A stretch of 46,681 bases of DNA from Promethearchaeota archaeon (GTDB lineage: Archaea; Asgardarchaeota; Lokiarchaeia; Sigyniarchaeales; SOKP01): NCBI GenBank assembly GCA_014730165.1, contig WJIS01000096.1, positions 1 to 46,681 of the forward strand, read 5' to 3'. A program made the translations under genes and the position numbers. Position 1 is the stretch's first letter, and each line of letters starts with the position of its first letter. The notes under the pieces are model-generated. The model did not search any database, was not told where the DNA came from, and saw only the letters and a program-made list of their open reading frames with translations. Below are positions 6,687 through 38,161 of this stretch, piece by piece.

Positions 6687-6700
6687 GGTGAAGAATAATT
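6687..6700 (+). promoter_or_regulatory. GGTGA ribosome site followed by ATA/ATT, no ATG/GTG/TTG
   Basis: GGTGAAG (6687-6693) stands four to six bases before in-frame ATA (6695) and ATT (6698). The downstream frame encodes a complete helix-turn-helix, yet it has no ATG, GTG or TTG between the TGA at 6689 and the GTG at 6818. A TATA-like stretch, rich in alternating T and A, lies near 6628-6645. Confidence 0.4.
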
Positions 6701-7393
6701 AGCAAAAAGAATGCTGAGATCAAGTATGAATATGAGATTTTTGAGTGCATTAAAAACAACCCTACTGGTGTCACGATAACCGATATTTCGGAAATCAAGG
6801 GATATTCAAGAAACACTGTGTCTAAATATGTTAACATCTTAGAATTAAAGAATAAAGTGTACAAGAAAAAAATCGGTGCGTATTCTCTCTATTTTAGTGC
6901 TGAGGAGACTTACCTTCCTAATAGTCTCGTGCTTTCATATTATAAAGCGTTGTTGAAAGGGCTAAAAACAAGGTATCCTATCAAAAGAAACGAGATAAAA
7001 GAGATTGCTGCCGATTTTGCCGATGAAATTAAATTTTCCTTTAGTCCTAAAATCTATAAACAGTTAAAAAACCTAAAAGCTCATCCTATTTCTAAAATAC
7101 ATTTAGAGATATTCAAAAACTTTTATCCCGCATATGATATTTTTCAACCAAATATCGAAATTTCAATTCTAGAGGTTGATAATGAAGGAAAAAAAGCAAT
7201 TTACCGATTTCGTAATTCAATCTTCTTAGAAAATAATGAAGATTATATCTATCACCTGTATTTCATGAGTGGTCTTACCCAAGGAATTCTATCAAGAGAA
7301 CTTAAAACAGAAGTAATTTGTAATATAGAAAATTATCACATCTCAGATGATAAAAAAGACTCTTATTTTGATATCTCACTTAGAATCAAATAA
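6698..7393 (+). CDS. Winged-helix regulator with C-terminal V4R-like sensor domain; possible AUU start
   Basis: The frame read from ATT at 6698 gives about 231 residues. Residues 10-60 form a winged helix-turn-helix (YEIFECIKNN, then ITDISEIKGYSRNTVSKYVNIL as turn and recognition helix). The C-terminal half ends in SGLTQGILSRELKTEV, then IENYHISDDKKDSYFDISL. This resembles the end of V4R domains, where GxxxGxl is followed by a Cys/Gly-rich segment, though the Cys is missing here. The first standard start (GTG, 6818) would delete most of the HTH, so an AUU/AUA start, or a frameshift joining the short ATG frame at 6675 (MRLLGEE then stop), is needed. It is probably a DNA-binding sensor of a hydrophobic ligand, which is inference. 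Confidence 0.6.
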   Translation: MSKKNAEIKYEYEIFECIKNNPTGVTITDISEIKGYSRNTVSKYVNILELKNKVYKKKIGAYSLYFSAEETYLPNSLVLSYYKALLKGLKTRYPIKRNEIKEIAADFADEIKFSFSPKIYKQLKNLKAHPISKIHLEIFKNFYPAYDIFQPNIEISILEVDNEGKKAIYRFRNSIFLENNEDYIYHLYFMSGLTQGILSRELKTEVICNIENYHISDDKKDSYFDISLRIK

Positions 7394-7477: not shown

Positions 7478-8512
7478 TTATTTTTTAACAAGATCTGGTA
7501 ATTCTTTAATTATCCTTTCAGCGTCACCGACTACATTGTTAATTATCGAATTTACTTTTTCTAGCTTCTCAATAATTCCAATACTTTGCCCAAGTAAAAC
7601 TGCACCATGCTGAATATCTCCATCGTAAGTCATCTCATAATGTTTTTGATCCTCCATTAACATCTCTACGGTCATTTGGTGTTCCGCTGCCAATTTTTCT
7701 TGTTTATCACTTACTAACCCATGATTTTTTGAATATTCGTTTTTCCAAAGTCTTATAGGTCCAAAAACTCCAGTAACTAATTCTGTGTCAACAGCATCTG
7801 CCTCAGGAATAATATCTTTATAGTTTTCATGAAATTCACTTTCATGTGTAGCTATGAAGCGAGATCCCATAGCAATCGCATCTGCTCCTAAGCTTAAGGC
7901 AGCTGCTAGGCTCGCGCCAGTAGCAAAACCCCCGCAAGCAACTAATGGGATGTCAGGGAACTTTTCCGTAACTTGCTGTAATAATACTAATGTACTAATT
8001 TTTTCATAAGATTGATGTCCTCCGCCTTCTGTACCAGTAACTACTAATCCATCCACTCCCGAATCAATACACTTCTTTGCTAACCATAATGCAGGCGCGA
8101 CATGGAAATTCTTTACTTCAGTAGATTCTTTCAATTTCTTATAAGATCGACTGGATTGAAGAGTTTTTGGTGAACCAGCGCTAGTAATAATATATGTACA
8201 CTGCTCTCTTAGTCTTTGATCCCCCATTATAAATTTCGGGATAACACGACAGAGATGTGGAGCGTCAGGTTGCATACGAGAAGTTCGAATGTTAAATCCG
8301 AATGGTTTATCGGTATGTTCCACGACATATTCCATATTTTTTTTTAATTCCTTTTCACTACTGCGGCCTAAAAGATTTGTGTGGCTAAGAACACCTAATC
8401 CACCCGCTTCACTAATTGCAACGGCGAGTTTAGTAGTATAAAATGGCCCCATTGGAGCTCCTATTATAGGATGCTCAATTCCAAACATTTTTGTTATATT
8501 TGTTTCTAACAT
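7478..8512 (-). CDS. Nitronate monooxygenase / 2-nitropropane dioxygenase-like flavoprotein
   Basis: This 344-residue FMN TIM barrel of the NPD/FabK family carries HPIIGAPMGP at the N-terminus, SEAGGLGVLS, TGTEGGGHQ (about residue 160), and the phosphate-binding VACGGFATGASLAAALSLGADAIAMG block. Family members oxidise nitronates or, in the FabK branch, reduce enoyl-ACP/enoyl-CoA; the sequence alone does not decide. Its start lies 29 bases after the stop of the CD36-family gene on the same strand, so the two are probably co-transcribed. Confidence 0.85.
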   Translation of the reverse strand: MLETNITKMFGIEHPIIGAPMGPFYTTKLAVAISEAGGLGVLSHTNLLGRSSEKELKKNMEYVVEHTDKPFGFNIRTSRMQPDAPHLCRVIPKFIMGDQRLREQCTYIITSAGSPKTLQSSRSYKKLKESTEVKNFHVAPALWLAKKCIDSGVDGLVVTGTEGGGHQSYEKISTLVLLQQVTEKFPDIPLVACGGFATGASLAAALSLGADAIAMGSRFIATHESEFHENYKDIIPEADAVDTELVTGVFGPIRLWKNEYSKNHGLVSDKQEKLAAEHQMTVEMLMEDQKHYEMTYDGDIQHGAVLLGQSIGIIEKLEKVNSIINNVVGDAERIIKELPDLVKK

Positions 8513-8541: not shown

Positions 8542-11001
8542 TTATTTATTTGAATCAGAAGGTTCTAGTGACTTATCTAAAGGTTCATTATTTACTGGGG
8601 GTGATTTCGGTTTTATTTCTCCCAATTTTTTAGATAAAATTTCCTTTTTGGCTTTTTTACTCTTAATAATGTATGAAGTCGTAAATCCTCCCCCCGGTAT
8701 AGCGCTCATTGCTCCGATCTGGATGCTCCAAAATGTAAGTTGATTTTTAAGAGTGATTGCTGGATAAACTTGGCTAGAAAATTCAGCAGCAAGCTCTTCT
8801 GTAATCTCTCCACTCTGCTCAAACCATAAAATAGGATTAATGGTTCTATTGATCTCTGAAAAGAGGAAATTTGTAGGTTTTATATCAAAGTTGATTTGTA
8901 TTCTATTTCTTGCGTTCATCACAATCCCAGAAATTGGTTCTACATATATAGAGGTTGAATGTAACGTTGTATTTGGATTCATTCCTTGAATAGAATTGAC
9001 TAATTCGACGTTAGTTTCTAAAAAGTGAGGTTTACTCACACAAACGGGAATTCCTCTGTAACTTTCGACCATGTGTAAATTGATTAAGCCATCGGTTGTC
9101 ATATAATAATTAGGATTTGCTTCAAATGTTTCTGGAGATAACCTATAACGATTTAATTGAATTCCATAAATTGAAGCTTGACCGGTATATTTTAAATCTA
9201 CGACTCTCATTAGATCTGGTTGGAATACTTTTAATTGAGAAGTTTTACTAATTCCGGGTGAAAATTGCATTCCATTTGTACCTTGGATTTTCTCTGGATT
9301 TTCCCAAATATTAATGTAGTCTATTCCGTTATATTCAACAATCTGTTTTACTTCATTCATATTGTTAATTCCAGTTTTAATAGTATATCGCGGAGAATGA
9401 ACTTTTTCTGCTTCACTAATGTTATGACAATCTTGGAATAAATTCACTAACGCTTGGTTTCTGTCCTTATTATAATAATCCATATATGCATAAATTGCAG
9501 AATCATTTGCTCTAAAAAGCCATTCTTCAACACTTCGAGTTGTTATTGTTCCGCTATTCCATTGGTTAAGTATATATTCAATAGCATTCGGTTCCCAAGA
9601 AGATAGACTTGTGTTTATCCATTGAAGAATATGGATTAATTGGGAATCACTAAGATTAAAATAAGTTTTGATAAATTCTTTGCTTACAAGTTCACCCATT
9701 AACGCTTCAAACCATAATTGATTTGATTCATAGTCTAATCCAGTCAAAGTATAAGGATCGGTCGGATTCCAGAGAGCTTTACATTGATTAAAGGTTAATC
9801 CTGTCCTTCCACTTATATTATAGATAGGAAGATTCATTCTTACTGCATCAATAAGACTCATCAGAGGATCCTTGAAGGTTTTAATCAATCGGGAACTTTC
9901 ATGACTATTGCAGTTGGTAATATTTAAATCCGCATTATTACCATCTAAATAACCATATTGGCCATCAATATCTACTCCAATTCCACTAAGGCTACCCGAT
10001 TCATCTACTAAATTTGCTGATGATTTTCTGGTAGCTTCATCCATTGCTTCTTGGATCTCGGGATCGCTTAATATTTCAATGTTTGCATCTTCAATGGCAC
10101 CCGCCCATGCGCCTCCAGGGCGATAATTCACATTCTCTTTTAGATATGTATAATTTCCAATAAATTCCGGAAAGTAATCATTTGCCCATTCTTCATAAAA
10201 TACTTCCTCCCATGTGGGCATACCGTTTCTTAAGAAGATTTCTAACACGGATGTTTCAATAGAACCGAGCATCAATTCATAGACTTCTTTGTCGGGAAAT
10301 CCAAGAAAACCTGCCATAAGATTTTCGCATTCCTTAAGCATTTCTGTTAAAGTGTTTTCTATCCATGTGTGATTGCTAAGTTTTTCCTCCATTGATTCTA
10401 AAAAGATGGTTTTAAATTGCTTCTTAACTTGATAGAGTACAAATGGTAAGTTCAATTCTAAATAATTTCGTTCTGTTCCCCCAGCGACGTGAAATCCTCC
10501 TAATAGTCCGGGATTGATATTCGTAATATACACTTCAGATGCATTTTGCCCATGTACTTGTACGAAGTCAGAATACTCATTGAAAGAAACTTTAGTATCA
10601 TCGCTACTCGATTGGATATTGTATTTATACTTATATTCCCTATATACAAATGGTCCGATCTCCTCATAAATTGGTAGACCTCCAGCTAAAAATTCAGTTG
10701 GATTTGTTAAATTCCACATATAATATGATTTAAATTCTTTCGGAGCTCCTTCATAATTGTTGCTAATCCATTCATTATAGTCAGGATCATTTGCATTAGG
10801 TACGAGGATCTGCTCTGCTATACCCTTATTAATTTCACCTTGAATAATATTTCCCAAGAATAATCCCCCTGGAATTAATATCAAACCTAGTGCCAATAAT
10901 ATAGCTGCCGCGATTCTCCTTGATCTTTTTGGTTTTTTTATTACTGATTTCTTAATAGATTCATCTAATTCGTTAGGTACTTTTTTTTTAGATTTTGACA
11001 T
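8542..11001 (-). CDS. CD36/LIMP-2/SR-B family scavenger receptor-like membrane protein
   Basis: This 819-residue protein has CD36-family layout: a basic N-terminal tail, a membrane helix (about residues 30-52), a large ectodomain, a second membrane segment (about 753-779) and a basic cytosolic tail. Family landmarks appear in order. They are YYMWNLTNPTEF (93-104; human YFFNVTNPEE), EEIGPFVYRE (113-122; EVGPYTYRE), IQGTNGMQFSPG (human INGTDAASFPP), EPISGI (EPITGF) and PILWFEQSGEI (about 723-733; PILWLNETGTI). It is about 340 residues longer than animal CD36, mostly between the N-terminal and C-terminal conserved blocks. Twelve N-x-S/T sequons lie in the ectodomain, fitting an extracellular, glycosylated protein. 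Only five ectodomain Cys are seen, so the animal disulphide set is not conserved. Animal members bind or transport lipids and lipoproteins. A lipid-binding role here is inference. Confidence 0.85.
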   Translation of the reverse strand: MSKSKKKVPNELDESIKKSVIKKPKRSRRIAAAILLALGLILIPGGLFLGNIIQGEINKGIAEQILVPNANDPDYNEWISNNYEGAPKEFKSYYMWNLTNPTEFLAGGLPIYEEIGPFVYREYKYKYNIQSSSDDTKVSFNEYSDFVQVHGQNASEVYITNINPGLLGGFHVAGGTERNYLELNLPFVLYQVKKQFKTIFLESMEEKLSNHTWIENTLTEMLKECENLMAGFLGFPDKEVYELMLGSIETSVLEIFLRNGMPTWEEVFYEEWANDYFPEFIGNYTYLKENVNYRPGGAWAGAIEDANIEILSDPEIQEAMDEATRKSSANLVDESGSLSGIGVDIDGQYGYLDGNNADLNITNCNSHESSRLIKTFKDPLMSLIDAVRMNLPIYNISGRTGLTFNQCKALWNPTDPYTLTGLDYESNQLWFEALMGELVSKEFIKTYFNLSDSQLIHILQWINTSLSSWEPNAIEYILNQWNSGTITTRSVEEWLFRANDSAIYAYMDYYNKDRNQALVNLFQDCHNISEAEKVHSPRYTIKTGINNMNEVKQIVEYNGIDYINIWENPEKIQGTNGMQFSPGISKTSQLKVFQPDLMRVVDLKYTGQASIYGIQLNRYRLSPETFEANPNYYMTTDGLINLHMVESYRGIPVCVSKPHFLETNVELVNSIQGMNPNTTLHSTSIYVEPISGIVMNARNRIQINFDIKPTNFLFSEINRTINPILWFEQSGEITEELAAEFSSQVYPAITLKNQLTFWSIQIGAMSAIPGGGFTTSYIIKSKKAKKEILSKKLGEIKPKSPPVNNEPLDKSLEPSDSNK

Positions 11002-11229
11002 AATTCATTCTAATCTCAAATTTTTATAGAGATTGATCAATTAAAATGCTGATGATCACTATTGATCAAACATCATTAGAATATTTTTTTCATTTATTAT
11101 ATTTAAATCTTTTGCAAAAATCGATTAAAGCTTTAAAAAAATACCTATTTTTAGAATTTAGATATTTAAATAGAGGAACTTTTATTATAAAACTAAAATC
11201 TGAAATAGTGTTTGAAATGTAAATGAAAA

Positions 11230-15165: not shown

Positions 15166-15939
15166 CTATCGAATATGATCTAAAATGAGATCATCACCTA
15201 TGGGAAGCGGCGTCTCGTTAACCACCTCTTTGATCCGATTGTAGCTGAGTTCGAGCTTAAAAAACCCGGGCGGTGGAGCAATATTTTCAATTCTCTCTAT
15301 TTGATTATAATTAAGATACAAATCATAGAGCCTTTGAATGGTTTCCAAATTCTCAATTCTCAGAATACGGTTGTTGCTTAGGTTTAAGACCTCCAATTTC
15401 GTAAGAATATTAAGTCTGATAATGCGGGATATAGTATTATAGATGAGACTGAGTTTTCTGGGTTCGGTAAAGTGCTTGATATTTTCTATTTTAGAGATGT
15501 TATTATTATCTAGGTATAAAGACCGAAGATTATGTAAAGTATCTAAATTTTCTATAGTAGAGATTTTATTATATTTTAGATCAAAATTTTTAAAATTCTT
15601 GAGGTTCTCAATATTTTCAATTTTTGCAAACCGATTATAATCAAGAGAGAGCCCAATTAGTTTTGAGAAGGATTCCACATCCTTAATTTTTAAAATTAAG
15701 TTTTGCGCAAGCGATAGATTCTTTAAATCCGTGATGTTATCGAGATGACTCATCCTTTCAAGCCCTACATTATGAATAAACAGCCTGTTGAGAGGTGTTA
15801 TTTTTTATAATCCTTTTAGAAGGGAGAGAGACGGAATATAAATAGGGGGATGTTCTCCGAATGATGGATCAATTCTTAAGAAACCTTTATCAACATAAAA
15901 TTTCCGTCCATTAAATTCTACAAATTGTTTCTCTGTCAT
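15166..15939 (-). pseudogene. SDS22-type LRR gene with in-frame stop and truncated 3' end
   Basis: ATG at 15939 opens MTEKQFVEFNGRKFYVDKG, the N-terminus of the intact homologue starting at 25129. The frame hits a TAA at 15805-15807 (codon 45) and then continues without any frameshift through about seven 22-residue repeats (LxxLxLxxNxIxxIEN). These include SLYLDNNNISKIEN, and the frame ends at LDHIR. The intact copy continues for another 100 residues after LDH, so the 3' end is missing too. The first ATG after the stop is at 15753 and could give a 195-residue capless LRR protein. Bases 15478-15570 are almost identical to 24811-24900 while flanking parts are more diverged, suggesting gene conversion. 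Confidence 0.75.
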
Positions 15940-15985
15940 TTTGCTTATCAATTATATTATAAATATTATTTGATTAATAGTATAA

Positions 15986-16219
15986 TTATATTAAAGACAC
16001 TTTCTTCGAGTTTTCACAGAATTTATCCGAATTCAGCGCCCACATACCTAATTTGGGCATCGATGAGAGTAACATCATAGGAAGGTAAATGCACATAACA
16101 ATCCCTTTCATCGTTTTTACCTGTAGTTTTTCTCCGGTTATATAATTTTCGCAGTATATCTCGGAATTATATTTTTTCCACCCATCACTTTCCTTGTCAA
16201 GAAGATCATATGTTTCCAT
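15986..16219 (-). CDS. Shortened paralogue of the small cassette membrane protein
   Basis: This 77-residue product (METYDLLDKESDGW...) aligns with the 119-residue protein ending at 25176 but lacks about 38 residues after GW. The matched end runs YCENYITGEK, a hydrophobic segment GIVMCIYLPMMLLSSM, then LGMWALNS. The deletion is in frame. It may be a decayed copy. It is divergent from the PIRL-type LRR gene, and its 5' region is the same duplicated block. Confidence 0.5.
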   Translation of the reverse strand: METYDLLDKESDGWKKYNSEIYCENYITGEKLQVKTMKGIVMCIYLPMMLLSSMPKLGMWALNSDKFCENSKKVSLI

Positions 16220-16370
16220 TATGGTAACTATACAACCGCATCCTAATAATTTCCATAAGATTTCGCATAGCGAGTTTTGGTTGCATCATCAAATACCAAA
16301 TTTAGTTATCTACCATTTGTTAAGTAGTGGATTGCAATTTTATTATATTTTATTCAGAATTAATTAGACT

Positions 16371-16382
16371 TTTATAATATAA
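16371..16382 (+). promoter_or_regulatory. TATA-like box before the long PIRL-type LRR gene
   Basis: TTTATAATATAA lies 18-30 bases before the ATG at 16401. The same element, with two base changes, precedes the copy-B gene at 21671-21683. The spacing suggests a very short leader. Confidence 0.4.
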
Positions 16383-16400
16383 GTTGATTTAAAATTATAT

Positions 16401-18440
16401 ATGAAAGATAAAATTTCCTTCAGAATGGCACAAATCCCACAGAGCGAAGTGGATGTGCTCAAACAACTCGAAGATCAAGCAGGAAAACAATTTCAGTTGG
16501 TAGATAATGTGGATTATGATACTCAAATGGGATTTTCAGTTAAACATAATAAAGTTGGGAGTATCGGTCTTTATAACTGCTCCTTATCTCATCTTCCAGA
16601 ATCAATTGCTAATCTCTCTTCCATAAAAAAACTCTATATGGAATGTAATACCCTCTCAACACTCCCAAATTCTTTAAAAGACCTTAGAAATTTAGAAGAA
16701 CTCTATCTAAAATTTAATCACATCACAGATTTTTCGCCTAACCTTAAAAATTTTTCCTCGCTTCGTATTTTAGACTTGAGTTATAATTCATTAATGAATA
16801 TTTCGGAAAGCTTAGAAAATTTGTCTTCTTTACACAATTTAGATATAAGTTATAATCCATTGAGAGTATTTCCGAAAAGTCTATGCCGTTTGAGATCACT
16901 AAAATTCCTAAAAATGATTGAAACCCAAATCTCAGCCCTTCCCGATTCTATAGGTAAATTAACATCATTGAATGTACTCTATTTATCTCAGAATTTTCTT
17001 AATTTTCTGCCGAATGCAATAGAGAAGCTTTCTTCTCTGGAAGAATTATATTTAAATAATAATCAACTTATATCACTTCCAGAAACCTTAGGAAACCTCT
17101 CCTCATTGAGAATATTAGATTTGCATAAGAATAGGTTAAATTCTCTGCCGAAATCAATTGGAAACCTATATTCTCTAAAAGAATTATATTTAAATAATAA
17201 TATGTTTAAGAACCTTACTGAATCAATTGTTTTCCTTGCAAAGTTAGAGATCTTGGATGTACATCGAAATTGGCTAATTAAACTTCCCGAGTCAATTGGA
17301 CAGCTTGTATCATTAAAAAAATTATATTTGCATCGAAATCAATTGAAAAATCTTCCACATTCTATTGGACAACTTAGGCAATTGACTGAATTAAAATTAA
17401 ATAATAATGATTTAAAAAACCTTCCAGAATCAATAAGAAATCTAAGGTCATTAATATCACTAGATCTTACCGGGAATAAAATAAATTCTATCGATAATTT
17501 CATCGGACAGCTTCCTTTATTGAAAGTACTAATTTTAGCAAGAACTCAATTGAATAACCTCCCAGAATCAATATGCGACTTGAAGTCACTTGAAGTATTA
17601 AGTTTGTCAGGCAATAGATTTACAGTTGTTCCTGAAAGTATTCGCTACTTATCCAATTTAAAGAAATTACGCTTAAATTTTAATCAACTGCGAGCATTGC
17701 CAGAATTTTTCGGGAAACTTAGGTCATTGAGAGAATTATCTCTGGGATATAATCAATTATCAGCATTGCCAGAGTCTATCGGAAATCTTAGGTTGTTAAA
17801 GAACCTTTATCTAGATGATAATCAACTTATAACTCTTCCAATCTCTATACACAAATTGGAATCACTTGAAAGTCTATCCTTGATTAGTAATCAAATATTT
17901 AGTTTATCGGAAGCTTTCGGACAACTACGTGCGCTAAAAAACCTCAATTTATATGGAAATTTTTTAAATAAGCTACCCGAGTCCATTGGAAATCTGAATT
18001 CTCTTTTAATTTTAAATATCAGTAAGAATAGAATTTCACATCTTCCCGACTCTATTGGTCAGCTATATTTATTAGAGGAATTTTATGCAGATTTAAATCA
18101 ATTATCCGAACTTCCAAAATCTATGGGAGGAATGCAATCTTTACAAATTTTAGAACTCTTCAATAATAACCTAACTAAAATTCCCGAATCGATAGGAAAA
18201 CTTAATTCGCTTGAGCGATTACGTTTAGATTATAATAACCTAACTAACCTTCCAGATTCAATTGGTCAACTTTCTTCGTTGAAAGAACTCCATATTAACC
18301 TTAATGAGTTGTCTACTCTTCCACAAACTATAATACAACTCTCTTCTTTAAAAAGATTATATATCTCTCTCGAAAAATTTAAGATTTTTCCAAAACCTCT
18401 GAAAATCTTAAAAAAAAGAGGGTTAAGAATTAATAGATAA
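16401..18440 (+). CDS. Long PIRL-type leucine-rich-repeat protein, 26 repeats
   Basis: The 679-residue protein has a non-LRR N-terminus (residues 1 to about 55, with EVDVLKQLEDQAGKQFQL) followed by 26 consecutive 23-residue repeats. They fit the pattern LxxLPxSIGxLxSLxxLxLxxNx, and a short basic cap (GLRINR) ends the protein. No signal peptide, membrane segment, GTPase P-loop or kinase domain is visible, so it is probably a cytosolic binding scaffold. The N-terminal pattern is of a kind known from other Asgard LRR proteins. The copy-B homologue at 21702 has repeats 1-9 and 24-26 only. Ligand unknown. Confidence 0.85.
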   Translation: MKDKISFRMAQIPQSEVDVLKQLEDQAGKQFQLVDNVDYDTQMGFSVKHNKVGSIGLYNCSLSHLPESIANLSSIKKLYMECNTLSTLPNSLKDLRNLEELYLKFNHITDFSPNLKNFSSLRILDLSYNSLMNISESLENLSSLHNLDISYNPLRVFPKSLCRLRSLKFLKMIETQISALPDSIGKLTSLNVLYLSQNFLNFLPNAIEKLSSLEELYLNNNQLISLPETLGNLSSLRILDLHKNRLNSLPKSIGNLYSLKELYLNNNMFKNLTESIVFLAKLEILDVHRNWLIKLPESIGQLVSLKKLYLHRNQLKNLPHSIGQLRQLTELKLNNNDLKNLPESIRNLRSLISLDLTGNKINSIDNFIGQLPLLKVLILARTQLNNLPESICDLKSLEVLSLSGNRFTVVPESIRYLSNLKKLRLNFNQLRALPEFFGKLRSLRELSLGYNQLSALPESIGNLRLLKNLYLDDNQLITLPISIHKLESLESLSLISNQIFSLSEAFGQLRALKNLNLYGNFLNKLPESIGNLNSLLILNISKNRISHLPDSIGQLYLLEEFYADLNQLSELPKSMGGMQSLQILELFNNNLTKIPESIGKLNSLERLRLDYNNLTNLPDSIGQLSSLKELHINLNELSTLPQTIIQLSSLKRLYISLEKFKIFPKPLKILKKRGLRINR

Positions 18441-18559
18441 ATTTTTTCATATCAAACCTATTACCTATACTCTTTCCAGATTTCTTAAATAGAGTTATGG
18501 AGAGTAGTTTTAATAAAGACGCTTATTGAGTAATCTAATTCACACTCAAAACAATGCTA

Positions 18560-19207
18560 TTACTTAAAATAATTTAACAACACTTTTCCCTTCTTAGTTA
18601 GTATGTTTGAGGCATTCTTTGACAGATAATTCATCTTTTTTAACTTTTAAATGAAATCGGGATAATTATTAGCAAGATGACGTTTTTGAGTTTCATGTAA
18701 AGTAGTTGATGGAATTTTTATAATGGAACTTTTCAATTTCCATTCTGGTTTGTTCAAATTCGTATTCAGAATTGATGAGATTAAATACTTATTTAGGTGA
18801 AAATAATTACGAATCAGCAAAAATTTAACAAAGTTTCTCACAACTACAGCGATAAAAATAGGGATATAAAAAAGCGAAAAAATATTGTAATTGATAAAAA
18901 TTGAGATTTCAGAAGTTTCAATTCTCATTATCCTCAGAGAAAAGAGGAGAAATGAATAGCTGAGAACAGTTATAAGTTCAGTTAGAACGAGTTTTGACCA
19001 GAAATAAGGTGGGATGAAATAATGTGCGATTATGGATCCGATTAGGAGTACCAATAAAAATATTTCACCCAATACCTCAAAAGGTGTATTTTCAGGATTA
19101 GGAATAAGGAAAAAGAATAAAAGGATTAGTACAACGTAAAATACTATTTTTATTTTCCTTCTTGTATCATAATCGATGGATTTCCATTTGTTATGTATAT
19201 CTCTCAT
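18560..19207 (-). pseudogene. Four-pass membrane protein with late premature stop (copy A)
   Basis: From ATG at 19207 the frame encodes 186 residues, then TAA at 18647-18649. Past this stop it continues, without frameshift, KLKKMNYLSKNASNIL and onward to LLNYFK and the stop at 18560. Copy B (22895-23542) reads Leu (TTA) at the same codon, so one T-to-A change created the stop. There are about four membrane helices (residues 20-37, 48-66, 72-93, 108-128), followed by a basic C-terminal domain whose missing end (LTKKGKVLL) looks like a winged-helix tail. The shortened protein may still be made. Confidence 0.65.
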
Positions 19208-19224
19208 TTTTCAGAATCCTTTTT

Positions 19225-19812
19225 CTATAATTGGCATGTGGGACATTCAATAGTATTTAAATTGATATTTCTAAAATTTATTGCAACTGGAATTGTATTA
19301 AAAAAGATTTTATAAGCAATAGAAATATTTATAAAAAAGTTTATTGTTCTAATTACCCCTAAGTTTTCATATACTCGATCTAAGTAAATACAATTAAAAT
19401 GTTCATCCCTACCACAAAAAGTAGCATTAATAATCGAAAATGGACTGACTTTCCCAAATTCTTGGTGTTTATGAAATATCTGGTATTCATGTAATTCAAA
19501 ATTTGATATATTTAAATATCTTACCGATATAGACAGCTCCATTTCTAGGTTGGTAAACTCCAAAATTCCTGAATTCTGTAAACTAAAAGAGATTTAAAGC
19601 TTTGGATGTGGTGTACTGAAATCTCGATAATAAAATCCATTTGGTAAGCGTAAACTGGAAATAGAATCGGTTATTAGAAATGAACTATAAAATGATGTTG
19701 TTATAAGCAATCCAAAAATGAGGATAATAAATGCAGTTTAAATATAGTTAAATATTGATAAGACCTCGTAAAATCTTTTATTTTTATAGAATCTTCTAAT
19801 ATTTTCATTCAT
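19225..19812 (-). pseudogene. Single-pass cassette protein with two in-frame stops (copy A)
   Basis: ATG at 19812 opens a 195-codon frame aligned over its whole length with the intact copy (23559-24134). It has TAA at 19738-19740 (codon 25) and TAA at 19594-19596 (codon 73), with no frameshift. Matching landmarks are a hydrophobic segment near codons 26-45, LPNGFYYRDFSTP, QNSGILEFTN and the terminal IIEC-like NTIECPTCQL. The ORF from 19563 covers only the last 112 residues. The coding frame is intact apart from the stops, so inactivation is probably recent. Confidence 0.7.
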
Positions 19813-19888
19813 TATCAATTATTATTACAACTACAGATTTATTTTATACTTCGATTCATTTTATAGATTATCGAAAATATATGTTAGA

Positions 19889-21034
19889 TTAAATGCCATA
19901 ATCTGAGAAGGGTAAGGTATTCTTGGGGATAATGCTTCCCTCATCATCAAAAATCAATTTTCCTTCCCTAAGCAAGCGCTCACAGAATGGATTTCCGTAG
20001 AGATTTATGTAAATCTCCTCAAATTCGATGAATTGGTCAATATCTTCAGGATTATTAAGGCGATTGAATGAAATGTCAATACTTTTTATGTCTTCAAATC
20101 GGTCTAAATCTAAATCGGGAATCCGCTTAATTAAGTTGTGTCGTAAAAATATTTGACGTGAGGTATCGGGAAATCTTACGCTATCAAACTTAGTTATGAA
20201 ATTATAATCCAACCAGATATTTTCTCTCACTGGAAGGGGGATATCACCTGTTATTTCTGAAAGCTTATTATGGCTTAAATCTAGAGTATTAGCCCGAAAT
20301 TGATATTCCCTATCATCAATTAGGTCAATCTGATTATGAGATAGATTTAATTCCCTCATCTGATTAAGCCCTTCGAGGTTTTCAATTCTTTTGATATTAT
20401 TGGATTCCAATCCAAGAAAATCAAGTTTAGTATGTACTTTAATTCCTTCAATTTTCGAGATACGATTCTGCTTTAAACTCAACATTCTTAAACACGTCAA
20501 GTTTTCTAAATTTTCAATCTTAGATATCCTGTTACTAGTTAAATTTAAGTGCAAGAGAGCTCTCAAATTTTCTAGCTCCTCAATTTTAGATATCTTATTA
20601 CCATATAAATTTAGGGATTTCAATTTCTTTAGCTTCTCTAAGTTTTCTATCTTTTGAATCTGATTTTTTGCTAAATTAAGTATTTCTATGTTTTCAAGTG
20701 ACTTCATGTTTTCTAATTTACTGATATTATTCTCACTCAGATCCAATTCAGTTAGATTTTTCAGGGAAGACAAATTTTCAATTTTAAAAATATCATTTTC
20801 TGCTAAATTTAACTTTTGTAACTTAGGAAAATGCTCCAGATTTTCGATTTTAGATATATTCAAACCTATTAAATATAATAAGTTAAGATCTTCTAATTCT
20901 GAAAATCCTTTAAGCTTTTGAAGGTTATTGACTTCTATATTATTCTCTATATTATCTCGGAAATTAATAATTAGCATTCCATTTTTAACCTTGAATTTTA
21001 TATCTTCAATTTCTATATATTGGTTTTTTGTCAT
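19889..21034 (-). CDS. SDS22-type leucine-rich-repeat protein (copy A side)
   Basis: The 381-residue protein starts MTKNQYIEIEDIKFKV, a short beta-rich cap. About twelve 22-residue repeats of SDS22 type follow (ISKIENLENLxxLxxLxLxxN). The C-terminal block has HNLIKRIPDLDLDRFEDI, NPEDIDQFIEFEEIYINLYG and NPFCERLL, shared with the copy-B homologue. No signal or membrane segment is seen, so it is likely cytosolic. Related SDS22 repeats bind protein phosphatase 1 in eukaryotes, but no such partner can be claimed here. It stands at the head of copy A with the broken single-pass gene 76 bases downstream. It is clearly diverged from the 24176 homologue, unlike the rest of the duplicated cassette. 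Confidence 0.85.
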   Translation of the reverse strand: MTKNQYIEIEDIKFKVKNGMLIINFRDNIENNIEVNNLQKLKGFSELEDLNLLYLIGLNISKIENLEHFPKLQKLNLAENDIFKIENLSSLKNLTELDLSENNISKLENMKSLENIEILNLAKNQIQKIENLEKLKKLKSLNLYGNKISKIEELENLRALLHLNLTSNRISKIENLENLTCLRMLSLKQNRISKIEGIKVHTKLDFLGLESNNIKRIENLEGLNQMRELNLSHNQIDLIDDREYQFRANTLDLSHNKLSEITGDIPLPVRENIWLDYNFITKFDSVRFPDTSRQIFLRHNLIKRIPDLDLDRFEDIKSIDISFNRLNNPEDIDQFIEFEEIYINLYGNPFCERLLREGKLIFDDEGSIIPKNTLPFSDYGI

Positions 21035-21280
21035 TTTTTATTAATAATTAAATTTTCAAAATTATTTAAATTTTCATAACTATTTTTTCAGTTCACTTAT
21101 GGGGAGGAATTGCGTCATCCAAAATCCTAATACAAAGATATATACCAATATTGATATTGGAACTATCGTTCCGGTCACCAATTTCTTGTAATGAATATAT
21201 ATTCGCAAACCCACAAAACCACCTAATAATCTTTCTAAGCATATTTTAAGACAATTATTTTTTTATGATTAAAAGAACAT

Positions 21281-21463
21281 CTATAGAATATGATCTAAAA
21301 TGAGATCATCACCTACGAGAAGTGGCGTTTCGCTAACCACCTCTTTGATCCGATTGTAGCTGAGTTCGGGCTTAAAAAACCCGAACGGGGGAGCAATATT
21401 TTCAATTTTTGCAAACCGATTATAATCAAGAGAGAGTCCAGTTAGTTTTGGGAAGGATTCCAC
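21281..21463 (-). pseudogene. Internally deleted LRR gene relic (copy B)
   Basis: A 60-codon frame reads LTGLSLDYNRFAKIEN, then directly IAPPFGFFKPELSYNRIKEVV and ends LDHIL. In copy A the two parts are separated by exactly five 22-residue repeats (330 bases). The breakpoint is the repeated motif ATATTTTCAATT, present in copy A at 15281-15292 and 15611-15622. Upstream a second deletion joins ATTCCACATC (copy A 15672-15681) to TCGGAATTATAT (copy A about 16161), removing the start of this gene and most of the small gene. The same missing 3' end as in copy A shows that the truncation predates the duplication. Confidence 0.7.
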
Positions 21464-21701
21464 ATCTCGGAATTATATCATTTCCACCCATCATTTTCCT
21501 TGTCAAGAAGATCATATGTTTCCATTATGGTAACTATACAACCACATCCCAATAATTTCCATAAGATTTCGCATAGCGAGTTTTGGTTGCATCATCAAAT
21601 ACCAAATTTAGTTATCTACCATTTGTTAAGTAGTGGATTGCAATTTTATCATATTTAGAATTATTTAGACTTTAATAATATAAGTTGATTTAAAATTATA
21701 T

Positions 21702-22778
21702 ATGAAAGATAAAATTTCCTTCAGAATGGCACAAATCCCACAGAGCGAAGTGGATGTGCTCAAACAACTCGAAGATCAAGCAGGAAAACAATTTCAATTG
21801 GTAGATAATGTGGATTATGATACTCAAATGGGATTTTCAGTTAAACATAATAAAGTTGGGAGTATCGGTCTTTATAACTGCTCCTTATCTCATCTTCCAG
21901 AATCAATTGCTAATCTCTCTTTCATAAAAAAACTCTATATGGAATGTAATACCCTCTCAACACTCCCAAATTCTTTAAAAGACCTTAGAAATTTGGAAGA
22001 ACTCTATCTAAAATTTAATCAAATCACAGATTTTTCGCCTAACCTTAAAAATGTATCCTCGCTTCGCATTTTAGACATAAGTTATAATTCATTAACGAAT
22101 ATTTCAGAAAACTTAGAGAATCTATCCTCTTTACACACTTTAGATATAAGTTATAATCCATTGAGAGTATTTCCGAAAAGCCTATGTAGTTTGAGATCAC
22201 TTAAATTCTTAAAAATGATTGAAACCCAAATCTCAGCCCTTTCAGATGCCATAGGTGAATTGACAGCATTGAATGTACTCCATTTATCTCAGAATCTTCT
22301 TAATTTTCTGCCGAATACAATAGAGAAGCTTACATTCCTAGAAGAATTATATTTAAATAATAATCGACTTACATCACTTCCAGAAACCTTAGGAAACCTC
22401 TCCTCATTGAGAATATTAGATTTGCATAAGAATAGGTTAAGTTCTCTGCCGAAATCAATTGGAAACCTCTATTCTCTAAAAGAATTAGATTTAAATAGAA
22501 ATTTATTTCTAACTAAACTTCCTGAATCGATAGGAAACCTTAACTCGCTTGAGCGATTACACTTAAATTATAATAACTTGACTAACCTTCCCGATTCAAT
22601 TGGTCAACTCTCCTCGTTGAGAGAACTCCATATTAACCTTAGCGAGTTATCTACTCTTCCACAAACTATAATACAACTTTCTTCTTTGAAAAAGTTATAT
22701 ATCCCTCCCGAAAAATTTAAGAGTTTTTCAGGAATTATAGAAATCTTAGAAAAGAGAGGGGTAAGAATTTATAGTTAA
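21702..22778 (+). CDS. Short PIRL-type leucine-rich-repeat protein, 12 repeats
   Basis: This 358-residue protein is almost identical to the 16401 protein over its N-terminus and first nine repeats, then jumps to the equivalent of repeats 24-26 and the C-terminal cap (GVRIYS). The difference of 321 residues is 14 x 23 minus one; the odd residue is an extra Phe in repeat 9 (LDLNRNLFLTKLP). No signal peptide or membrane segment is visible. The upstream DNA, TATA-like box included, is duplicated with the gene. Convergent with the four-pass membrane protein gene 116 bases away. Confidence 0.85.
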   Translation: MKDKISFRMAQIPQSEVDVLKQLEDQAGKQFQLVDNVDYDTQMGFSVKHNKVGSIGLYNCSLSHLPESIANLSFIKKLYMECNTLSTLPNSLKDLRNLEELYLKFNQITDFSPNLKNVSSLRILDISYNSLTNISENLENLSSLHTLDISYNPLRVFPKSLCSLRSLKFLKMIETQISALSDAIGELTALNVLHLSQNLLNFLPNTIEKLTFLEELYLNNNRLTSLPETLGNLSSLRILDLHKNRLSSLPKSIGNLYSLKELDLNRNLFLTKLPESIGNLNSLERLHLNYNNLTNLPDSIGQLSSLRELHINLSELSTLPQTIIQLSSLKKLYIPPEKFKSFSGIIEILEKRGVRIYS

Positions 22779-22894
22779 GTTTTCTTCATATCAAATTTAT
22801 TTTCTATACTTTTACTAGATTTTTATATAATGTTATAGAGCAGCTATATATAGACGCTTTATGACTAATCTAATTCACACTCAAAACAATGCTA

Positions 22895-23542
22895 TTACTT
22901 AAAATAATTTAACAACACTTTTCCCTTCTTTGTTAGTATGTTTGAGGCATTCTTTGATAGATAATTCATCTCTTTTAACTTTAAAATGAAAACGGGATAA
23001 TTCTTAGCAAGATGACGTTTTTGAGTTTCATGTAAAGTGTTTAATGGAATTTTTATAATGGAACTTTTCAATTTCCATTCTGGTATGTTCAAATTCGTAT
23101 TTAGAATAGATGAAAGTAAATACTTATTTAGGTGAAAATAATTTCGAGTCAGTAAAAATTTTACCAGATTTCTAGTAATTAAGGTGATAAAGAGGGGAAT
23201 ATAAAAAAGTGAAAATATATGGTGATCAATAATTAATGTGACTTTTAAAGTTTCAATTCTCATTATCCTCAGAGAAAAGAGGAGAAATGAATAGCTGAGA
23301 ACAGATACGAGTTCGGTTATAATAAGCTTTGACCAAAAATAAGGAGGTATTAAATATTGTGCGACTATAGCTCCTAGTAGGAATACCAATAAAAAGCTTT
23401 TACCCATTAACTCAAGAGGTGCATATTCAAGATGAGGGATAAGAAAAAAGAGCAAAAGGATTAATACAATGGAAAATACAGTCTTCATTTTCCTTCTTGT
23501 ATCATAATCGATGGATTTCAATATCTCAAATATATCCCTCAT
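22895..23542 (-). CDS. Four-pass membrane protein with basic C-terminal domain (copy B)
   Basis: The 215-residue product has about four membrane helices (residues 20-37, 46-66, 72-93, 108-128) and a cytosolic C-terminal region with LNTLHETQKRHLAKNYPVF, then LSKNASNILTKKGKVLLNYF. The last part resembles a winged-helix end (LTKKG followed by a hydrophobic helix), so a membrane-tethered DNA- or RNA-binding role is possible but unproven. It starts 16 bases after the single-pass gene and ends the four-gene minus-strand cassette. No known family is recognised. Confidence 0.75.
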   Translation of the reverse strand: MRDIFEILKSIDYDTRRKMKTVFSIVLILLLFFLIPHLEYAPLELMGKSFLLVFLLGAIVAQYLIPPYFWSKLIITELVSVLSYSFLLFSLRIMRIETLKVTLIIDHHIFSLFYIPLFITLITRNLVKFLLTRNYFHLNKYLLSSILNTNLNIPEWKLKSSIIKIPLNTLHETQKRHLAKNYPVFILKLKEMNYLSKNASNILTKKGKVLLNYFK

Positions 23543-23558
23543 TTTCAGAATCCTTATT

Positions 23559-24134
23559 CTATAGTTGGCATGTAGGACATTCTATTATGTTTAAATTAAG
23601 ATTTCGAAATTCCAAGAAGACCGGAATCGTATTAAAAAAGCCTTGATAACTAATAATTATATTAATAAAAAAAACGACATCTATGATAGTTTCGAGATTA
23701 TCGTAGATGTTATCTAATACCGCTATGTCAAAATATTCGGATTCTCCTACAAATGTCTCATTATTATTAGAAAACGGTGCTATGCTGCCGAAGTTCTCAC
23801 ACTTTTCAGAGAATTGATACTTTCTGACCTCTAGGTCGGATACATTCAAATATTTAACCTCTAACGCAATTTTTACTTCGAAGTTTGTGAGTTCCGCAAT
23901 TCCGGAGTTTTTCACCCCGATGGAAATTCTGATTTGGGGATTTGGAGTACTGAAATCTCGATAATAATATCCGTTTGGGAGATTTAGATTTGAAGTAGTA
24001 TTATTTATGCAGTAGAGAGTATGGAAAGAAAAAAGGGATAAAATGATAAATCCGAAAATAATAACCCATAATAAACTCTTGTTTAAAATTTTAAGTTTCC
24101 TTAACGTTCTAATTTTTAACACTGTTTTCTTCAC
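23559..24134 (-). CDS. Single-pass surface protein with C-terminal CxxC (copy B)
   Basis: The 191-residue protein has a basic N-terminus, one membrane helix (about residues 18-42, signal-anchor type) and an extracellular beta-rich domain. That domain carries RISIGVKNSGIAELTNFEVKIALEV, typical of small beta-sandwich modules, an N-glycosylation sequon (NNTTSN region) and a terminal ECPTCQL with a CxxC pair. No family is recognised. It lies between the SDS22-type gene (gap 41 bases) and the four-pass gene (gap 16 bases), so it is probably co-expressed and may be the outer part of a membrane complex. Confidence 0.75.
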   Translation of the reverse strand: MKKTVLKIRTLRKLKILNKSLLWVIIFGFIILSLFSFHTLYCINNTTSNLNLPNGYYYRDFSTPNPQIRISIGVKNSGIAELTNFEVKIALEVKYLNVSDLEVRKYQFSEKCENFGSIAPFSNNNETFVGESEYFDIAVLDNIYDNLETIIDVVFFINIIISYQGFFNTIPVFLEFRNLNLNIIECPTCQL

Positions 24135-24175
24135 ATTCTATACGATCTTTTTCTTTTCCGTTTGATGAGAAAAGA

Positions 24176-25129
24176 TTAAATTCTCATATGTACCTCTTCT
24201 TCGGTCCACGTGTTTTTGGGAATGATGCTGGTTTCGTGATCGTAGACCAAGGTGCCTTTTTTTAGCAATCGTTCGCAGAATGGGTTTCCATAGAGGTTTA
24301 CATAGATATTTTGCTTTTTAATAAACTGTTCAATATCTTCGGGATGGTTCAGCCGGTTGTTTGAAAGATCGATACTGATGAGACGGTCAAAGCGTTCGAT
24401 ATCGAGGTCGGGGATACGTGTGATTTGGTTATCGTTCAGTATAAGATATTCGATAAAATCGGGAATAGCCGAGCTTTCAAATCGGGTAATTAAATTATGA
24501 TCTAAAATAAGATAATTGCCTACGGGAAGCGGCGTCTCGCTAACCACCTCTTTGATGCGATTGTAGCTGAGTTCGAGGTTAAAAAATCCGAGCGGTGGGG
24601 TGATATTTTCAATTTTCTCGATTTGATTATGACTGAGGGATAAATCTTCCAACTTAGTTAATGTCTCGATATTTTCGATCTTCTGGATTCTGTTGTAATC
24701 TAAACTCATGCCATTAAGATTTGTAAGGGTTTTAATACCTTCTATCCGTGATATATTATTATAACTGAGACAGAGAGTTCTGAGTTCGGTTAGGTACTCG
24801 AGATTTTCTATTTTAGAGATGTTATTATTATCTAGGTATAAAGACCGAAGATTATGTAAATTATCTAAATTTTCTATCGTGGAGATTTTATTATCAATTA
24901 AAATTAAATTATTCAAGGATTCTAAATTGTGCAATCCACTAATCTCATTTAATTTCATACTACGGAACTCCAGTAATTTTAAATCAATTAAATTCGAGAG
25001 TCCATTCACCTGTGAAAGTTTTGTACTGTCTTTGATTGGCTTCTTTAAATTTTCAGCTTTTATAAAGAGAGAGTCTTTATTAACAAAAAATTTCTGACCA
25101 TTAAATTCAACAAATTGTTTCTCTGTCAT
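24176..25129 (-). CDS. SDS22-type leucine-rich-repeat protein (copy B side)
   Basis: From ATG at 25129 the protein has 317 residues: the cap MTEKQFVEFNGQKFFVNKD, about nine 22-residue SDS22-type repeats and a C-terminal block with IPDLDIERFDRLISIDLS, NHPEDIEQFIK and NPFCERLLKKG. An in-frame GTG at 25141 overlaps the GTGA that looks like the ribosome site, so ATG is preferred. Parts are nearly identical in DNA to the broken gene at 15166-15939, others are diverged. It lies 46 bases after the small membrane gene and is probably the second gene of a four-gene operon. No signal or membrane segment is seen. Confidence 0.85.
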   Translation of the reverse strand: MTEKQFVEFNGQKFFVNKDSLFIKAENLKKPIKDSTKLSQVNGLSNLIDLKLLEFRSMKLNEISGLHNLESLNNLILIDNKISTIENLDNLHNLRSLYLDNNNISKIENLEYLTELRTLCLSYNNISRIEGIKTLTNLNGMSLDYNRIQKIENIETLTKLEDLSLSHNQIEKIENITPPLGFFNLELSYNRIKEVVSETPLPVGNYLILDHNLITRFESSAIPDFIEYLILNDNQITRIPDLDIERFDRLISIDLSNNRLNHPEDIEQFIKKQNIYVNLYGNPFCERLLKKGTLVYDHETSIIPKNTWTEEEVHMRI

Positions 25130-25175
25130 TTTGCTTATCACTTATATTATAAATATTATTAGATTAATAAAACAT

Positions 25176-31449: not shown

Positions 31450-32310
31450 ATGGAATTTGAAACGATTAAATTTGATTTAAGAGATGATGGAATAGGAATA
31501 TTAACATTAAATAGACCAGATAAACTCAACGCGATGTCTTTTCAGATGATTGAGGATTTACATTCGATTTTGGACCATCTAATGACAAACCTAAATTGTC
31601 GTGTAGTGATTCTTAAAGCTGCTGGAAGAGCTTTTTGTGCTGGATTAGATTTAAAAGAGTCAATGGTATTGCAATCAAAACGCAAGCCCGATGAACTTAA
31701 AGAAAAATTTTATTTTATTGATGTACCTGAAAAGGATATAATTAAAGCTAAGATGTATGGACAATGGAGGACAAGCCGTCTTATAGTAAAAATGAGGAGG
31801 ATTAACCAACCTATCATCGCAGCGATCCAAGGTGCGGCTTCGGGGGCGGGATTTGCCTTTTCATTAGCTGCAGATATAAGGTTAGCGGGAGAAAAAGCGA
31901 AATTTAATAATGCTTTCATTAAAGTTGGGTTTTCGGGAGCTGACTTAGCGAGTAGTTATCATTTACCAAGGCTCATTGGAATGTCAAGAGCTGCAGAAAT
32001 ATTATATACAGGACGTTTTGTCGAAGCAGAAGAAGCTGAGAGGATAGGTTTAGTCTCAAAAGTAGTAGAAGGAGACGATGAGGAACTTTTTAGATATGCG
32101 TTAGAGATGGCTAACCATATGATTAATAAAAGTCCCCTTGGGTTGAGAATGACCAAAGAGGCGATTAATCTTTCAATGGATTCCCCTAGTTTAGAAACTA
32201 TGATTCAATTGGAAAATCGAACTCAAATGCTTTGTTCCACTTCTGCTGATGTAATGGAGGGAGTGAAAGCATTCTTTGAAAAACGTGACCCTGATTATCC
32301 ATTGAAATAA
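31450..32310 (+). CDS. Crotonase-superfamily protein lacking the hydratase Glu pair (paralogue 1)
   Basis: The 286-residue protein has a crotonase fold: NRPDKLNAMS, the oxyanion-hole segment GRAFCAGLDLKE (about 59-70), GAASGAGFAFSLAADI (second oxyanion region) and GRFVEAEEAERIGLV. Where enoyl-CoA hydratase has its two catalytic Glu residues (Glu144 and Glu164 in rat), this protein has Ala and Phe. It keeps an Asp in GADLASSYHLPRLIG at the place of the catalytic Asp of dienoyl-CoA isomerase. A standard hydratase role is thus doubtful. It acts on CoA thioesters in an unknown step. AGGAGA is an ideal ribosome site. A paralogue is at 38162. Confidence 0.85.
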   Translation: MEFETIKFDLRDDGIGILTLNRPDKLNAMSFQMIEDLHSILDHLMTNLNCRVVILKAAGRAFCAGLDLKESMVLQSKRKPDELKEKFYFIDVPEKDIIKAKMYGQWRTSRLIVKMRRINQPIIAAIQGAASGAGFAFSLAADIRLAGEKAKFNNAFIKVGFSGADLASSYHLPRLIGMSRAAEILYTGRFVEAEEAERIGLVSKVVEGDDEELFRYALEMANHMINKSPLGLRMTKEAINLSMDSPSLETMIQLENRTQMLCSTSADVMEGVKAFFEKRDPDYPLK

Positions 32311-32376: not shown

Positions 32377-33000
32377 ATGTTTAATGATTCTGATGATATC
32401 TTTAAAGTTTTACGTGACAAGGTAAGAACGTTATTCACTGATATTCAAAAGGAATTTACTTATCTTTATAGCGATGATGAGCATTACATTAAGATGAGAT
32501 TACCCGTAAAGTATATTGAAAAGGATACCATCCCAGAATTAAGAAACGCAGTTAAAAATCTTGATATTAAACCTGAAATACATGTCGCGGATAAGAGTGA
32601 AATAAATGATTTAAATAACATTTATCATCAATCTTGGATTGCCTCTGACTTGCCTATGAAGGGAGTTACGCAAGAATTAATTCGAGATATCTTTAATGAT
32701 AAAAATACAAGGTTTTTAATCGCCCAAATTGAAAATAAAAACGTAGGTTTTATCCTTGTAGAATTTGATAAAAAAAATGAAGATATCGGGATAATTTCAG
32801 GCATCGGAATTTTACCTGAACATCAATCTTTAGGATTGGGAAAATTTCTAGCTTTACAAAGTTGGAAGTTTTTTAAAGAAAAAAACGTCAAAACGCTCCA
32901 ATGTGAAGTATATGAAAAGAATGTCAAGGGAATTAAATTCATTAAATCACTAGGTTTTCAAGAATATGGAGAAAAGGAAGATCGGTCATTACTAAAATAA
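32377..33000 (+). CDS. GNAT N-acetyltransferase (paralogue 1)
   Basis: The 207-residue protein has an N-terminal extension of about 75 residues (MFNDSDDIFKVL and on to VKYIEKD), then a GNAT domain. The acetyl-CoA-binding motif A reads GIGILPEHQSLGLGKFLALQSW (about 149-170), with Q/RxxGxG/A as HQSLGLG, followed by NVKGIKFIKSLGFQEYGE (motif B). The substrate is unknown. It resembles the minus-strand GNAT at 33437 over its full length, including the extension (IKMRLPVKYIEKD against INMRLPADKITED), so the two are diverged duplicates. Confidence 0.88.
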   Translation: MFNDSDDIFKVLRDKVRTLFTDIQKEFTYLYSDDEHYIKMRLPVKYIEKDTIPELRNAVKNLDIKPEIHVADKSEINDLNNIYHQSWIASDLPMKGVTQELIRDIFNDKNTRFLIAQIENKNVGFILVEFDKKNEDIGIISGIGILPEHQSLGLGKFLALQSWKFFKEKNVKTLQCEVYEKNVKGIKFIKSLGFQEYGEKEDRSLLK

Positions 33001-33436: not shown

Positions 33437-34078
33437 TCATTTTAAAGGAGATATATAATCTCGATCAACAAATTCTTCAAAACCAAAGTTTTTAATAAAA
33501 TTATAAGCAATTTTATTCTCTTTATGTACTTCTACTCGAATTTCATCGATGCCTCGCTTTTTGAAATAACTCCACGCGGACATTGCAAGATAAGTCCCTA
33601 ATCCCATACCTTGGTATTTAGGAATGATACCTAGTCCAGCTATTTTACCAATTTGGTTATCAGGTCCTTCAAAATCTAATAGAACAAATCCACAATCAAC
33701 ATCATCTTCACTAACTATTAGACCGACTACATCAGGATCCTTTAGGATATCTCTTAATGTATCTTTTGTAAGATCATAAATTTTCATGGTTGTTGTATGC
33801 CATGAATCCTTATATAATTGAATTACAGTTTCAATATCCTCCTCACCTGCTTCTCGGAGACTGAGTTCTATTCCGTGTGAACCGATTCTGTTACATAAAG
33901 TATTTTCAAAATCTTCTGTTATTTTGTCGGCAGGCAACCGCATGTTTATATAATCAGGATTTTTTTTCTCAACAGTGAGGAAATTTTCACCCAAATTTGA
34001 AAAGACATCTCTAATTTTTTTCTTTTTAAGGCTGAATTTACTGGGTTTATCCTCTTCGCGAGTTTGATCTTTAGACAT
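33437..34078 (-). CDS. GNAT N-acetyltransferase (paralogue 2)
   Basis: The 213-residue protein has a Lys/Glu-rich N-terminus, the INMRLPADKITED segment shared with paralogue 1, and a GNAT domain. Motif A reads GLGIIPKYQGMGLGTYLAMSAW (YQGMGLG is the acetyl-CoA loop), then NKIAYNFIKNFGFEEFVDRDY. Like its paralogue it probably acetylates an amine or protein N-terminus, with no evidence as to which. The gene follows the thiolase on the same strand after 137 bases. Confidence 0.88.
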   Translation of the reverse strand: MSKDQTREEDKPSKFSLKKKKIRDVFSNLGENFLTVEKKNPDYINMRLPADKITEDFENTLCNRIGSHGIELSLREAGEEDIETVIQLYKDSWHTTTMKIYDLTKDTLRDILKDPDVVGLIVSEDDVDCGFVLLDFEGPDNQIGKIAGLGIIPKYQGMGLGTYLAMSAWSYFKKRGIDEIRVEVHKENKIAYNFIKNFGFEEFVDRDYISPLK

Positions 34079-38150: not shown

Positions 38151-38156
38151 GGGTGA
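38151..38156 (+). promoter_or_regulatory. Ribosome site GGGTGA that decides a TTG start
   Basis: GGGTGA lies five bases before TTG at 38162. The in-frame GTG at 38153 falls inside this site, so it is not the start. Confidence 0.5.
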
Positions 38157-38161
38157 ATTGT

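Follow-up and report, generated by a model that had tools for sequence, protein, structure and literature searches.

Does an archaeon encode a genuine member of the CD36/LIMP-2 family, and what might such a protein do in an archaeal cell? Animals use membrane proteins of this family to move fatty acids and cholesterol, and the family is usually treated as eukaryotic. Lipid movement has been described for CD36 and LIMP-2 (PMC6684646, PMC5712522). The question is raised by contig WJIS01000096.1 of a Promethearchaeota archaeon (assembly GCA_014730165.1; 4.65 Mb in 392 contigs, 98% complete), in which a sequence-only reading, made without database searches, had pointed out a CD36/LIMP-2 homologue. 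The whole stretch of DNA analyzed, 46,681 nucleotides, is referred to here as the window.

A CD36 family protein in an archaeal genome

8542..11001, minus strand: CD36/SR-B family protein, a hairpin membrane protein of 819 aa (PF01130, LIMP-2 sequence match, fold match)

This reading frame matched the Pfam CD36 profile PF01130 with an E-value of 4.9e-78 and 263.1 bits, about ten times the curated cut-off of 26.5 bits, which rules out a chance match as the source of the CD36 signal. The closest solved proteins by sequence were human LIMP-2 (1e-33) and CD36 (6.7e-29), and a profile built from ten Asgard relatives recovered LIMP-2 at 2.6e-70. An AlphaFold2 model built on the Asgard-only alignment of the same ten relatives predicted the asymmetric beta-barrel ectodomain fold of the family; its mean pLDDT was a modest 67, low in an insert and the tails and about 75–94 in most barrel segments. 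LIMP-2 was in the AlphaFold2 training data. When the model was compared with the PDB using Foldseek, LIMP-2 (E 1.9e-19) and CD36 (1.7e-16) ranked at the top, both with a probability of 1.00 and with target TM-scores of 0.77–0.81 for the best matches (0.78–0.81 for LIMP-2), followed by mycobacterial LmcA at about 1e-3 and then nothing notable. Judged by sequence and predicted fold, the protein is a true CD36/LIMP-2 family member and extends a known family to another domain of life. The homology that had been read from the letters was thus borne out by the profile, the sequence matches and the predicted fold, including the two checks that the sequence-only reading had proposed, a PF01130 search and a structural comparison with LIMP-2 and CD36.

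Topology, family landmarks and the apex insert

10840..10920, minus strand: first transmembrane helix, TM1 (aa 28-54), after a Lys/Arg-rich tail predicted to be cytosolic (hydropathy; model helix 26-65)
10537..10755, minus strand: first part of the CD36 barrel (aa 83-155), with NLTNPTEF and EIGPFVYRE (LIMP-2 alignment)
9655..10536, minus strand: helical apex insert (aa 156-449), holding most of a module at about aa 402-462 (LIMP-2 alignment, model, module matches)
8767..9654, minus strand: apex helix and main CD36 barrel (aa 450-745), with GTNGMQFSPG, EPISGI and PILWFEQSGEI (LIMP-2 alignment)
8677..8763, minus strand: second transmembrane helix, TM2 (about aa 747-775), and the start of a Lys-rich tail predicted to be cytosolic (model helix 735-793; hydropathy of relatives)

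Two transmembrane helices flank the ectodomain, with Lys/Arg-rich tails at each end. TM1 is clear; TM2 falls below the hydropathy threshold used in the window copy, is clear in most relatives and lies in a single long helix (735-793) in the model, in keeping with the hairpin described earlier. Sequence and model together show a protein with both tails predicted in the cytosol and an ectodomain outside, made of a CD36 beta-barrel with an enlarged helical apex on top. The family landmarks NxTNP, EIGPYxYR, GTxGxxFxP, EPxxG and PxxW are all present and in the expected order, as had been claimed: NLTNPTEF at aa 97, EIGPFVYRE at 114, GTNGMQFSPG at 574, EPISGI at 688 and PILWFEQSGEI at 723. Twelve N-x-S/T sequons had also been pointed out. 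The count is real, and it does not exceed that in shuffles of the same protein (9.0 ± 2.7, p = 0.18); we rejected sequon number as evidence.

None of the five LIMP-2 cysteines of the aligned region had a counterpart in any of the 11 Asgard sequences aligned, confirming the absence of the animal cysteine pattern. The disulfide cysteine pairs of SR-B proteins are restricted to Metazoa (PMC10715195), and the pattern is not a defining feature of the CD36 family outside that group.

The sequence-only reading had counted about 340 extra residues in mid-protein; the extra length is real and comprises about 294 residues at one place (aa 156-449) plus longer tails. In the LIMP-2 alignment, window residues 83-155 and 450-745 correspond to the conserved ectodomain, and residues 156-449 fall between LIMP-2 chain positions of about 119 and 125, which places the insert at the apex farthest from the membrane. 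Expansion with helices at this place is also reported for eukaryotic SR-B proteins whose ectodomains exceed 500 aa (PMC10715195). By published description, non-metazoan SR-B proteins (Dictyostelium LmpA, oomycetes, ciliates) expand at the same alpha4/alpha5 apex site, keep the barrel and have no conserved disulfides, like the window protein (PMC10715195), which makes apex expansion and missing disulfides normal for the family outside animals. The window protein thus shares with LIMP-2/SCARB2 and CD36/SCARB3 the hairpin, the barrel landmarks, the predicted fold and the apex position of its extra helices, but differs from them in its ~294-residue helical apex insert, in having no disulfide cysteines, and in the archaeal host and operon-like setting of its gene beside a transcription regulator.

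Distribution among Asgard archaea and origin

PF01130 was detected in 12 of 228 Asgard genomes, in Loki- and Heimdallarchaeota: besides the source genome, within the genus of the window in G156 (two copies) and G157, within its family in G113, G116 and G137, and in other families in G006, G030, G031, G034, G038 and G054. A scan of the genomes of 84,980 species with two short motifs, which may miss other hosts, returned ten loci, every one of them from a MAG labelled Lokiarchaeota, Heimdallarchaeota or unclassified 'archaeon'; an earlier scan with a single sequence found nothing. The same-genus and same-family copies belong to MAGs named Candidatus Lokiarchaeota, and the more distant group to Heimdallarchaeota. 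A gene tree from 379 barrel-core columns, unrooted and with LIMP-2 as the single eukaryotic sequence on a long branch, separated the genus of the window, the genera g8/g9 and the non-Loki group by kinship.

Could the gene have come from a eukaryote, or the signal from eukaryotic DNA that contaminates the bins, in which case it would say nothing about how eukaryotes arose? The patchy presence of CD36 (12/228) and the long branch of the sole eukaryotic sequence placed would suit such an explanation, which we nevertheless consider quite unlikely. The reading frames are uninterrupted and lie in gene neighbourhoods common to independent MAGs; the barrel core of the Heimdall copy is 23–35% identical to other Asgard copies, compared with 22–32% between LIMP-2 and Asgard copies. 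A recent single transfer does not agree with a Heimdall copy about as distant as LIMP-2, nor with the branching of the copies by genus and family. On these sequence comparisons a recent transfer between domains is unlikely, and an ancient transfer, in either direction, might have occurred.

Contamination of bins was rejected on the occurrence in 12 of 228 genomes, the named MAGs, the common neighbourhoods and a tree that follows kinship. A viral origin was also rejected: searches of viral contigs found no relative and no viral fold matched. No plasmid relatives of the Heimdallarchaeal CD36 at locus L036 were found. The broadest survey of SR-B proteins that we found covers eukaryotes only, leaves archaea unmentioned and infers one copy in the last common ancestor of eukaryotes (PMC10715195). 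Our literature search, with most subscription journals and preprints outside its scope, found no report of CD36 in Asgard archaea.

A regulator nearby and its predicted pocket for hydrophobic ligands

6695..7393, plus strand: cassette regulator, winged helix plus V4R/Bet3-like sensor domain (PDB profile match, fold match)

A small regulator gene (window 6818-7393) is kept near all Lokiarchaeal CD36 loci. The open frame reaches back to 6695, with a helix-turn-helix encoded in its upstream part, and the first ATG, GTG or TTG comes only at 6818. Several genomes show the same arrangement, a frame open through the helix-turn-helix with no ATG, GTG or TTG before it; the regulators of L033, L035, L028 and L029 belong to this set, and that of L032 has an ATG. 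The missing start possibly reflects a non-standard start codon or assembly errors.

Read from 6818, the regulator matched no Pfam family at E 0.1 and none in NCBIfam. An alignment of 22 members matched an IclR winged helix in the PDB at 5e-6. The model (pLDDT 86) predicts a second domain, whose best fold matches (E 6e-5 to 1e-3) were TRAPPC3/Bet3, in one case with palmitate bound, and PoxR and MopR, both sensors of phenol. The V4R sequence profile (PF02830) did not match the window regulator, leaving a fold match only, and in the source genome it hit other proteins, below its cut-off. Folds of the V4R/Bet3 class bury acyl chains or aromatics, and the regulator is predicted from its model to carry a hydrophobic-ligand pocket, for a ligand that would be of this kind. 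Its predicted sensor fold resembles those of V4R/Bet3 proteins (phenol regulators PoxR, MopR, DmpR; TRAPPC3), and it differs from them in that the sensor is coupled to an IclR-like winged helix instead of an AAA+ activator.

Barrel-less siblings share the apex module

When the phylum was searched for the regulator, CD36-linked copies ranked at the top, followed by loci without PF01130, and all 13 of the 13 best loci lay 0.1–3.4 kb from a CD36 gene or a barrel-less gene. In the loci without PF01130, the regulator adjoins a hairpin protein of 545–1012 aa, often between the same flanking genes.

L087:9157-11805, L088:8692-11343, L089:12065-15103, L090:6183-7826, L091:8603-11956 and L092:5914-7554: barrel-less hairpin proteins beside the CD36-type regulator

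These proteins share with Asgard CD36 the TM1 region, in members read from their start, and the apex module, which they carry in two to four tandem copies; TM2 is also shared in several members. They contained nothing matching the barrel columns of Asgard CD36, and no Pfam family was found in them. The module lies at about aa 402-462 of the window protein, whose own copy aligned with barrel-less proteins at 42% identity over 62 aa (blastp, E 1.4e-5). In profile-profile comparison, profile A1 matched apex-module profile A3 at E 2e-15; profile A3 gave no match to the window protein at E 0.01 in a small database, and the link of the window copy itself rests on the blastp match and the match of A1 with A3. 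A search for the barrel-less family gave matches in 45 of the 228 Asgard genomes, chiefly those of Lokiarchaea; three of the 45 (G030, G038, G054) were included through the apex of a true CD36. Since CD36 copies outside Lokiarchaea carry the module, the evidence mildly favours loss of the barrel by the siblings over gain of the module by CD36. The barrel-less siblings and the dedicated regulator are new here, and with their common regulator the siblings offer a natural experiment on the separate roles of apex and barrel.

Shared operator-like sites

11033..11069: three TGATCA sites (11034-11039, 11053-11058, 11063-11068), 33–67 bp upstream of the CD36 start (enrichment)

Among 13 Lokiarchaeal cassette genes, TGATCA occurred 20 times in the 200 bp upstream against 1.0 expected, and 11 of the 13 had at least one upstream site compared with 24 of the 207 remaining ORFs at these loci; p-values overstate this enrichment because the motif was first picked by eye after the sequences had been seen and because the genes are related. 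The enrichment is limited to the TGATCA core, and the extended pattern TGATCANTAATTRTCA was not above chance in the window. From their sequence and position the sites are operator-like and putative. Their presence upstream of CD36 and barrel-less genes alike links both kinds of gene to a single regulator family. Some of the sites fall between divergently oriented genes, where they could also act on the regulator gene.

Lipid-gene context and proposed function

7478..8512, minus strand: FabK-like/nitronate monooxygenase-family flavoprotein (PF03060, 3.4e-46; TIGR03151)

This FabK-like gene follows CD36 on its strand after a gap of 29 bp; it scores 187 bits with the TIGR03151 FabK profile, under that profile's cut-off of 453. 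The matching cassette of G155 has a 78% identical FabK-like gene and an acyl-CoA ligase between the regulator and a barrel-less gene, G156 has an acyl-CoA ligase between regulators and CD36, and methylmalonyl-CoA mutase genes lie near the CD36 of G157 and near the second G156 copy. The CD36 genes of genera g8/g9 are flanked by AIR synthase-like, MoCF, PIG-L and TPR genes, none of which is a fatty-acid gene. FabK-like and acyl-CoA-ligase genes are linked to some, not all, cassettes. Elsewhere the window encodes a thiolase, two enoyl-CoA hydratases, a 3-hydroxyacyl-CoA dehydrogenase and BKACE. Lokiarchaea probably carry beta-oxidation genes commonly, and nearness within 46 kb is by itself a weak argument. 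Animal CD36 works with acyl-CoA synthetases.

From the family membership, predicted fold, topology, gene linkage and shared sites shown above, we infer lipid handling by the window protein, and we think it fairly probable that it acts as a regulated class B scavenger receptor at the cell surface, taking hold of fatty acids or comparable hydrophobic compounds and passing them through its barrel to the membrane. Outside the cell, free fatty acids, lipid particles or other hydrophobic molecules of a similar kind would be captured by the enlarged apex, and an internal tunnel of the barrel would pass them down to the cell membrane. Inside, the linked enzymes (FabK-like reductase, FadD-like acyl-CoA ligase, products of beta-oxidation genes) would activate and use them. 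The neighbouring regulator probably senses such molecules and probably controls the CD36 gene through the TGATCA sites. Because archaeal membranes are built of isoprenoid ethers, something other than a fatty acid may be the substrate.

Alternatively, the protein could be a CD36-fold receptor for adhesion or protein recognition, as in contact with a partner or symbiont, in which the apex binds and the barrel is a stalk. The apex module occurs without a barrel, in two to four tandem copies, in many Lokiarchaea and beside the same regulator family, and proteins are also among the ligands of LIMP-2 and CD36 (PMC4104448, PMC5052687). Against such a role, which we regard as unlikely, stand the strong conservation of the barrel itself, the FabK-like and acyl-CoA-ligase neighbours and the hydrophobic-ligand fold of the regulator.

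The presence of a true CD36 member in a Lokiarchaeal genome, next to fatty-acid genes and the predicted regulator, suggests that CD36-type lipid handling may predate eukaryotes. A bearing on the origin of eukaryotic lipid handling, raised in the sequence-only reading, is reasonable but unproven, and with CD36 present in Loki- and Heimdallarchaeota, in places linked to fatty-acid genes, one can test directly whether the archaeal host passed protein-mediated lipid uptake on to eukaryotes. More tentatively, and with more doubt than confidence, we propose that regulated Asgard CD36 lipid uptake predates eukaryotes and is ancestral to SR-B/LIMP-2, and that the Lokiarchaeal apex gave rise to barrel-less surface proteins under the same hydrophobic-ligand regulator.

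Relation to the LmcA/PgfA family

LmcA/PgfA proteins of actinobacteria (PF11271; PDB 7n3v) are membrane-anchored lipid-trafficking proteins with a CD36-like barrel (PMC8972800) containing cavities, and PgfA binds a trehalose monomycolate analogue (PMC9678360). Their barrel and this binding suggest that a CD36-like fold moves lipids in prokaryotes too. They are much smaller than the window protein, have no apex bundle and match its model weakly.

A function of this type, in which an envelope-building factor hands a membrane lipid or lipoglycan outward from the cytoplasmic membrane instead of taking it in, is in our judgement very unlikely for the window protein. It would accord with the appearance of LmcA in the Foldseek list, with the ligand of PgfA and with the Heimdallarchaeal CD36 of L036, which exceeds the PF11271 cut-off (32.5 against 29.5 bits) and weakly matches the PgfA profile NF053601; the window protein itself, however, stays below that cut-off at 16.6 bits, its gene is too patchy (12/228) to resemble an essential envelope factor, and its lipid-related neighbours look catabolic.

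The L036 protein (L036:549-2372), a compact 607 aa CD36 that scores above cut-off in two Pfam families, CD36 and PorA/LmcA, is possibly a sequence bridge between the two families. We also observed a 318 aa LmcA/PgfA-type protein in an Asgard archaeon (L094:618-1574, genome G227), above the PF11271 cut-off at 45 bits; an earlier description confines the family to actinobacteria (PMC9678360). Profile comparison of this protein with the CD36 alignment gave no signal.

Other features of the window

Positions 15166-25141 hold a tandem repeated block, in which a leucine-rich-repeat gene on the minus strand, another on the plus strand and two small genes on the minus strand occur twice over; a third copy of the block's first leucine-rich-repeat gene lies at 24176-25141, and a further related leucine-rich-repeat gene at 36975-38018. 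Local duplication is also seen in a related gene pair in opposite orientation, one of them a GNAT acetyltransferase (32377-33000 and 33437-34078), and in two related enoyl-CoA hydratase genes (31450-32310 and 38153-39016).
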